Source: a virus. From it: a stretch of DNA of 41,422 nt. A model generated the notes under the pieces. The model did not search any database, was not told the origin of the DNA, and saw only the letters and a program-made list of their open reading frames with translations. Numbering within the stretch: the first letter of the stretch is position 1; every line of letters begins with the position of its first letter. Positions 18,104 through 19,196 of this stretch are shown piece after piece. The stretch is taken from IMG/VR virus record IMGVR_UViG_3300030328_001298, positions 1-41,422 of that record. The stretch is one strand, 5' to 3'. The position numbers and the translations under genes are program-made.

Positions 18104-19196
18104 ACATTTAGACTTATGTAGTGGTATCGGTGGGTTTGCTTTTGGTTTCCAACAAGCAAATCTATCCGAGCCTATGGCATTTTGTGATACTGATAAATTC
18201 TGTCATAAAGTGCTTAATAAAAACTTTCCAGGAATTCCAATTTTTAATGATGTGAAGGAGATCGCAGATGACCCAACGAGATTTATTTCAGAAAGACCCG
18301 ATATCATCACGGGAGGTTACCCGTGCCAACCATTTTCCACAAGTGGCAAAAGAGATCCGAATGACCCTCGAAGAATCTTTCCGTTCTTGCATAGCATTGT
18401 TGAACAAACAAGACCCTCTTATTGTGTTTTCGAAAATGTGTATGGACACATCTCATTGGGACTTGACGAGGTTTTGTTTCAAATGGAAAGCATCAACTAC
18501 CATACGAGGACATTTGTATTTCCGTCTAGTGCAATCGGAGCAAGACACAAAAGGGACAGACTTTGGATCATCTGTAGAAACTTGGGCGACCCCGACAACT
18601 ATGGATTCCCTTCCACCAAGAAGTGCAGAGGCAACGAAGAAATTACAACAGACGCACAGAAAGGGAAGGAAAAGACCGAGCAACTTGAGAGAGCAAGTCG
18701 ATCCGAAGACAATGGAAATGTATCCAACTCCAACAACGAAGGGATACGGACACGCATCAGAGGGACAGACCATGATGTTCAGAAGGAAAGTGGAGAAGGG
18801 CGAACTGACGGAAGCAGAAGCTCAAGCCATGATGAACGGAGTAACTTTAAGACCACCGAGAATGGAAGAATGGAAATTTCCGACACCAAACTCGGGACTG
18901 AAGAAACACAGTTACAACGGCAACAATCAATATTACGAGAAAAGATTGAAGGACGGCAGACAAATCGATCTGACACACAAGATTTATCAGATAGAGGGAG
19001 ATGCAAGACTAAATTGCGATTGGGTGGAATGGTTGATGGGGTATCCTATTGGTTGGACGAACCTAGAGAAGTCCCAAGAATCACAATCGACCAACAAGAC
19101 AGAGCCAACAGACTGAAGGCTTTGGGAAATGCAATCGTTCCCTTTAATGCAAAATTAATTGGATTAGCAATCAAGAAGGAGATTGAAAATGGATAG
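18096..19196 (+). CDS. DNA cytosine-5 methyltransferase
   Basis: 366 aa. S-adenosylmethionine site DLCSGIGGFAFG (6-17), catalytic loop GGYPCQPFS with C77, ENV at 113-115, GARHKRDRLW (148-157, motif VIII), and motif X RANRLKALGNAIVP (336-349). All catalytic residues are intact. It would methylate C5 of cytosine in phage DNA, usually to evade restriction. The region from about 165 to 300, where a target-recognition domain is expected, is very hydrophilic and low in aromatic residues (for example NVSNSNNEGIRTRIRG). That is exactly where a second gene is encoded in another frame of the same strand. Base composition here is more GC- and purine-rich than neighbours. Confidence 0.93.
   Translation: MLKHLDLCSGIGGFAFGFQQANLSEPMAFCDTDKFCHKVLNKNFPGIPIFNDVKEIADDPTRFISERPDIITGGYPCQPFSTSGKRDPNDPRRIFPFLHSIVEQTRPSYCVFENVYGHISLGLDEVLFQMESINYHTRTFVFPSSAIGARHKRDRLWIICRNLGDPDNYGFPSTKKCRGNEEITTDAQKGKEKTEQLERASRSEDNGNVSNSNNEGIRTRIRGTDHDVQKESGEGRTDGSRSSSHDERSNFKTTENGRMEISDTKLGTEETQLQRQQSILREKIEGRQTNRSDTQDLSDRGRCKTKLRLGGMVDGVSYWLDEPREVPRITIDQQDRANRLKALGNAIVPFNAKLIGLAIKKEIENG
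18268..19116 (+). CDS. Gene nested in the methyltransferase, alternate frame
   Basis: 282 codons lie wholly inside the methyltransferase gene, same strand, shifted frame. AAGGAG stands exactly seven bases before its ATG, a better ribosome binding site than most genes here have. The product looks protein-like: SHWDLTRFCFKWKAS near 62-76, TWATPTTMDSLPPRS near 107-121, YPTPTTKGYG near 152-161, and LNCDWVEWLMGYPIGWTNLE near 248-267. From memory, TPTT..D and LNPxWVEWLMGxPxGWT are hallmarks of phage proteins annotated as methyltransferase-associated, and the latter sits where motif IX would lie. It may supply a specificity part to the methyltransferase. Translation is unproven. Confidence 0.68.
   Translation: MTQRDLFQKDPISSREVTRANHFPQVAKEIRMTLEESFRSCIALLNKQDPLIVFSKMCMDTSHWDLTRFCFKWKASTTIRGHLYFRLVQSEQDTKGTDFGSSVETWATPTTMDSLPPRSAEATKKLQQTHRKGRKRPSNLREQVDPKTMEMYPTPTTKGYGHASEGQTMMFRRKVEKGELTEAEAQAMMNGVTLRPPRMEEWKFPTPNSGLKKHSYNGNNQYYEKRLKDGRQIDLTHKIYQIEGDARLNCDWVEWLMGYPIGWTNLEKSQESQSTNKTEPTD

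Follow-up and report, generated by a model that had tools for sequence, protein, structure and literature searches.

The DNA considered here is the whole of a 41,422-base IMG/VR virus record (the window), and the gene of interest in it, described as coming from a marine phage, raises the question of what a second, long open reading frame is doing inside a cytosine methyltransferase gene. The outer ORF matches the profiles PF00145 (E 1.7e-33) and PHROG_363 (E 1.2e-55), and the catalytic motifs I, IV (with its PCQ), VI (ENV), VIII and X of C5-cytosine methyltransferases are all located in its chain. That chain is without a target-recognition domain (TRD) and motif IX; it has a near-neutral linker instead, and motif IX sits in the inner frame.

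Two frames in one gene

An earlier note, made from the letters alone, had described both frames as open and the outer one as carrying the C5-methyltransferase motifs with X included, and had pointed to a ribosome-binding site for the inner gene. All of this is borne out, with a 7-base spacer between the AAGGAG and the inner ATG (Table 1). The double reading of the same DNA is also there, with outer LGGMVDGVSYWLDE (19020-19061) overlying inner LNCDWVEWLMGYPIGWT, and so is the odd hydrophilic stretch of the outer chain between motifs VIII and X, in which 76% of the residues are D, E, K, R, N, Q, S, T or G. The two TPTT blocks seen in the inner frame are present and a third TP block, FPTPN, occurs besides, and what had been called a motif IX-like block is conserved in 59 relatives and matches the motif IX position of the single-chain enzymes considered below.

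Table 1. Features of the nested methyltransferase locus, in positions of the 41,422-base window
Feature	Position	Strand	Basis
Outer ORF, C5-cytosine methyltransferase catalytic body, 366 aa	18096..19196	+	PF00145, PHROG_363
Motif I (DLCSGIGGF), outer frame	18111..18137	+	sequence
Shine-Dalgarno (SD) AAGGAG of inner gene	18255..18260	+	SD-preceded inner starts in relatives
Inner ORF, +1 frame, 849 nt/282 aa, predicted TRD and motif IX subunit	18268..19116	+	PHROG_1008, selection, monomer homology
Inner N-terminal part over motifs IV-VIII	18268..18582	+	weak constraint, dN/dS 0.54-0.64
Motif IV, catalytic PCQ (GGYPCQPFS), outer frame	18312..18338	+	sequence
Motif VI (ENVYGH), outer frame	18432..18449	+	sequence
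Motif VIII (ARHKRDRLW), outer frame	18540..18566	+	sequence
Outer-frame linker, 182 aa, hydrophilic	18567..19112	+	near-neutral, no stop in it
TRD module 1 (WATPTTMDSLPPRS...PSNLREQV...)	18583..18720	+	module type recurs elsewhere in unrelated arrays
TRD module 2 (YPTPTTKG...)	18721..18876	+	sequence, array comparison
TRD module 3 (FPTPNSGL...)	18877..19008	+	sequence, array comparison
Motif IX (LNCDWVEWLMGYPIGWT), inner frame	19009..19059	+	conserved columns in 59 relatives
Motif X (LKALGNAIVP), outer frame, starting at the extreme end of the overlap	19113..19142	+	sequence; outer synonymous variation back at 0.64 of expectation

Elsewhere in the window, genes for the large and small terminase subunits (11616-13145 and 19574-20155, both on the - strand) are about 6.4 kb apart and flank the + strand methyltransferase region, and 31130-31771 (- strand) has a strong match to PHROG_3704, 'ferredoxin' (E 4.8e-108), making it a gene of host-takeover or metabolic type.

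Selection on both frames

Constraint was assessed on a codon alignment of the outer gene from 38 non-redundant close relatives, with the expected synonymous variation derived from codon usage. Synonymous variation in the outer frame is 0.54 of expectation upstream of the overlap, 0.19 within it and 0.63 downstream (permutation p 5e-5). Over 18621-19071, after motif VIII, it drops to 0.03-0.14 of expectation, and it is here that outer amino-acid diversity goes up and that the first position of outer codons, which is the third of inner ones, is the most variable. When each change is classed by its effect in both frames, the part between motifs VIII and IX has an inner dN/dS of 0.09-0.15 and an outer one of 1.0-1.7, with identity at 0.88 in the inner frame versus 0.63 in the outer. 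The outer linker has a dN/dS of about 1.0 over 18570-19074, yet it is never interrupted by a stop. In the part from motif IV to VIII it is the outer frame that is constrained (0.29-0.34) and the inner one only weakly so (Table 1). A constraint test on homologues of both products had been proposed with the original observation, and its outcome is strong constraint on the inner frame.

Stop codons are absent from the inner frame of the 38 relatives and number 748 in the third frame. Variation is also highest at the inner third position in 10 of 10 further clusters of relatives; the check is a somewhat biased one as these clusters were defined by inner-protein similarity. An SD-preceded inner start with an open frame after it was found in 68 of 68 close relatives and 47 of 60 distant ones, with two additional samples giving 33/80 and 39/80; the corresponding counts for the outer frame, which is always open and served as control, are 1/68, 4/60, 8/80 and 2/80. 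The inner protein matches PHROG_1008 ('DNA methyltransferase') with E 3.4e-18 over residues 27-267, most of its length, and has no match in the Pfam or NCBIfam profiles. Both genes, outer and inner, are real and under selection.

A chance ORF was also considered as such, and is ruled out by the selection signal and the stop counts.

Single-frame and split relatives

What the inner gene does can be inferred from homologues that carry the same protein unsplit. ShiLan gp70, Babsiella gp54, prophiT49-1 gp22 and ChadMasterC gp4 are single-frame actinophage monomers with the order motifs I-VIII, several LLPTPxAxD blocks, RLxPAFxEWMMGWPxGWVT (motif IX) and IGNGVVPQQA (motif X), so that the TPTxxD blocks of the inner protein and its LxPxFxEWMMGxPxGW motif IX are found in the main frame between VIII and X. 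ShiLan gp70 and Babsiella gp54 thus have the catalytic motifs, TPTxxD blocks, IX and X of the present locus, but in one chain and one frame, and 59 of 64 examined IMG/VR relatives of the monomers likewise read through in one frame. Actinophages also have a split form, that of Peaches gp77/76, RemusLoopin 34/35, phiBT1, Firecracker gp6/5 and Andrew gp43/44, in which the first ORF ends after motif VIII and the TP blocks, motif IX and motif X are all in a +1 ORF; the annotation of Upyo gives the two parts as separate, non-overlapping genes. The locus studied here differs from the split form in having motif X back in the outer frame.

Aligned by hhalign with the monomers, the inner profile falls on their TRD and motif IX stretch and nowhere else (prob 94.5, E 8e-8; prob 96.1, E 3e-9). 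Because the actinophage architectures and this alignment put its sequence there in the monomers, the inner chain is, on computational grounds, the TRD and motif IX half that is missing from the outer body. The motif IX columns L248, N249, W252, E254, W255, L256, M257, G258 and P260 are invariant or nearly so in the 59 relatives. The IX-X segment of the monomers is colinear with residues 273-308 of M.HhaI, the segment alone not being significant (-0.2 bits), and the predicted monomer structure (pLDDT 77) matches M.HhaI structures. The TRD part of that model is of low confidence, as is the AlphaFold model of the inner chain alone (pLDDT 53, pTM 0.23), and in neither model, both being unreliable there, is a TRD fold seen. 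No solved C5 methyltransferase was found with the inner profile alone against PDB sequences. For the inner N-terminus (18268-18570), where constraint is weak, a beta hairpin is predicted with low confidence at inner residues 70-90.

In Streptomyces phage phiBT1 (L215, 1032-2079) the annotation of gene 9.1 reads 'DNA methylase may be inactive'; the TRD and the motifs IX and X that this gene lacks are in an unannotated +1 ORF right behind it.

Distribution

All 169 of the inner-family loci fetched also have a methyltransferase, always in the +1 relation, and no standalone inner-family copy without one is among them; the loci are not all independent since some contigs were present in two scans. 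A search with the catalytic half only gave 155 usable loci, and in 148 of them the +1 frame is open and holds a block resembling motif IX; a strict pattern picks out 123 of these, and the other 25, with a variant motif, were judged by eye. The remaining seven are truncated or frame-shifted copies. Homologues in which the inner frame is regularly broken by stops would have refuted the original reading, and they are not what is found.

Among the named relatives are Paenibacillus Fernvirus (gp56/gp57), Lacticaseibacillus R9.1, Acinetobacter ABMM1, phage C75C1, Escherichia KMB43 and K1G (ORF31/ORF30), Salmonella S9-5 and Mycobacterium Spikelee, and there are plasmid-borne relatives too, one on a Leptospira plasmid and one on a Bacteroides plasmid. 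A single-sequence scan of genome contigs gave only four loci, two of them spurious, and genomes were searched with PHROG_1008 instead; it was present in 26 of 398 sampled genomes from the phylum of a Pseudomonas genome and in 3 of 398 from the phylum of a Neobacillus genome. E. coli prophages have the PHROG_1008-type nested layout. PHROG_1008 includes the inner protein, its label being silent on a TRD and motif IX part nested in another methyltransferase gene. Some annotators record both frames and many just one.

Individual loci depart from the common pattern in several ways. The nested methyltransferase of E. coli ECCTRSRTH03 (L463, 2363-3532) is auto-annotated as two incomplete pseudogenes, with TPT modules in the +1 frame. 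In Mycobacterium phage OfUltron (L213, 1194-1953) a frame change, either a mutation or a sequencing error, splits the outer frame into gp75/gp76, which in Spikelee (L210) is intact. In a Paenibacillus prophage (L312, from 2501) the catalytic frame continues straight into the TRD and motif IX, without motif X, and it looks as though the frames had rejoined.

Alternatives

Three other explanations of the inner frame bear on how these results are to be read. It is hardly credible that the ORF is spurious, kept open and conserved-looking by the composition and motifs of the outer gene. Some inner conservation is indeed forced in the motif IV-VIII part, where by inspection outer LGYDAEW, read in the +1 frame, gives an inner SGMTRNG-like element. 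From motif VIII to IX, however, it is the outer frame that is near neutral and the inner one that is strongly conserved, the variability by codon position changes phase after motif VIII, and the monomers carry the same sequence in their main frame. A real protein with a separate function, for example in regulating or inhibiting the methyltransferase or in countering restriction, is very doubtful: two-thirds of it, the C-terminal part, is homologous to the monomer TRD and IX, exactly what the outer chain lacks, and the 169 loci include no copy standing alone. The room left for such a function lies in the absence of biochemistry for the inner protein and in its N-terminus, weakly constrained and without a known match.

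Ribosomal frameshifting that fuses outer I-VIII to inner TRD-IX, with the enzyme being the one fusion chain, is unlikely, though it has more than one thing to commend it. Single-frame monomers exist, the inner frame is open well 5' of its start in many relatives, and in Peaches-type loci a single +1 shift rebuilds a complete monomer. Against this, a complete chain at the present locus would take two shifts, since the outer frame again carries motif X there, and an SD and start codon are conserved within the outer gene.

A probable two-chain enzyme and its proposed origin

The preferred explanation, held in the absence of expression, binding or methylation data, is that a single mRNA from the locus very probably yields the two chains of one C5-cytosine methyltransferase. 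The outer frame would yield the catalytic body (motifs I-VIII), the near-neutral hydrophilic linker and motif X, and internal initiation at the ribosome site of the inner +1 frame would yield a second chain with the target-recognition modules and motif IX. Most likely the two would assemble in trans into one active enzyme in the manner of M.EcoHK31I, and the assembled enzyme would methylate phage DNA and so evade host restriction. The assembly, the mutual need of the chains, the methylation activity, the target sequences and the anti-restriction role are all inferred. Protection from restriction is an established role of phage methyltransferases and is, by analogy, the likely use of this one, a phage orphan enzyme; no restriction gene was recognised among the scanned neighbours of the locus.

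As to origin, a frame change after motif VIII may be envisaged and, for loci of the present type, a second one before motif X. This fits the constraint map, each frame being constrained where it carries methyltransferase motifs. By inference it is the TRD-IX part that probably keeps the ancestral frame, shifted relative to that of the body, rather than being a newly overprinted protein, and the outer linker and inner N-terminus look like by-products. The earlier note had proposed a methyltransferase body and a separate specificity partner made by overprinting; the body with its partner in another frame is supported, and the overprinting of a novel protein is not.

Comparison with known enzymes

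The small chain of M.EcoHK31I is reportedly encoded in a different frame of the gene for the large chain, with M.EaeI said to be similar, and the present locus and its relatives have the gene for their second chain placed in this way. M.EcoHK31I (YGGCCR) is a two-polypeptide C5-methyltransferase with motifs I-VIII and X on its large chain and IX on its small chain (PMC3404938), a division that the present locus shares. The predicted TRD of M.EcoHK31I is also on the large chain, with only motif IX on the small one (PMC3404938), whereas here it is the inner frame that encodes the TRD modules, a neutral linker taking their place in the body. In three regions examined for an E. coli restriction-modification locus of EcoHK31I type there were only prophage copies, and no adjacent restriction gene was recognised beside the nested loci of E. 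coli prophages. M.AquI (CYCGRG), another natural two-chain C5-methyltransferase, has part of the TRD, IX and X on its small chain (PMC3404938), and the second chains of Peaches and phiBT1 are like it in this; the present locus is unlike it in keeping motif X on the body and in having its second gene nested. Orphan C5-methyltransferases of the Bacillus phages SPR, SPbeta, phi3T, rho11 and H2 have tandem TRDs between VIII and IX (PMC12707154; PMC8936443). Several tandem TRD modules (~40 aa) before motif IX are likewise found here, the multispecific Bacillus phage enzymes being, in contrast, of one chain and one frame.

Two-chain C5 enzymes are thus already known in M.EcoHK31I and M.AquI, and by analogy the present system, its activity being inferred, would work like them. 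As far as the open-access literature searched shows, what is new is how common and how old the nested form is, the placement of the TRD in a second frame opposite a neutral linker of the body, the modular make-up of the TRD array, and the series from monomer through split to nested. In that literature nothing on point was found for an overlapping phage C5-methyltransferase, and no description of the Mte8 protein family was found in the abstracts searched. The nested arrangement recurs across very different phages, and genome annotation mostly overlooks it. To our knowledge bacteria and their phages have few same-strand nested genes for which selection on both frames has been demonstrated and which have relatives in many lineages. 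The arrangement shows a way for one overlapping locus to maintain a split enzyme, and it accounts for phiBT1 gene 9.1 and the E. coli prophage copy, the one annotated as possibly inactive and the other as pseudogenes. For phage orphan methyltransferases, a large class, it also suggests a testable way of getting at their specificity.

Modules in the second frame

The inner protein is built as an array of modules of about 45 aa, each headed by TP and mostly 25-55 aa apart. There are one to eight TP modules in each of 91 non-redundant arrays, and three in the present locus. Of 1526 pairs of strongly similar modules, 837 are at different array positions, a figure inflated by contig ends cutting some arrays, and 480 pairs are in arrays whose modules are otherwise unmatched. 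The WATPxTMDxLPxRS...SNLREQV module, for example, is the first of three in L126 and the second of four in L135 (80% identity), which have no other module in common, and it is the second of four in L122 and the third of four in L141 (100% identity).

That the second frame is a cassette of exchangeable TRD modules which serve a common catalytic body in trans is plausible without quite being probable, and there are no specificity data to go with it. Should it hold, phages could gain, lose and reorder DNA specificities within one reading frame, with the neutral linker of the outer chain accommodating any in-frame module length, and combinatorial multispecific methylation across two frames would be widespread in phages and prophages. 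Phage C75C1 (L084, 2358-3800) has a very long pair, with an outer chain of 480 aa and an inner frame open for ~460 codons, and with its six or seven or so TP blocks it is a good candidate for pursuing the idea of a TRD array.
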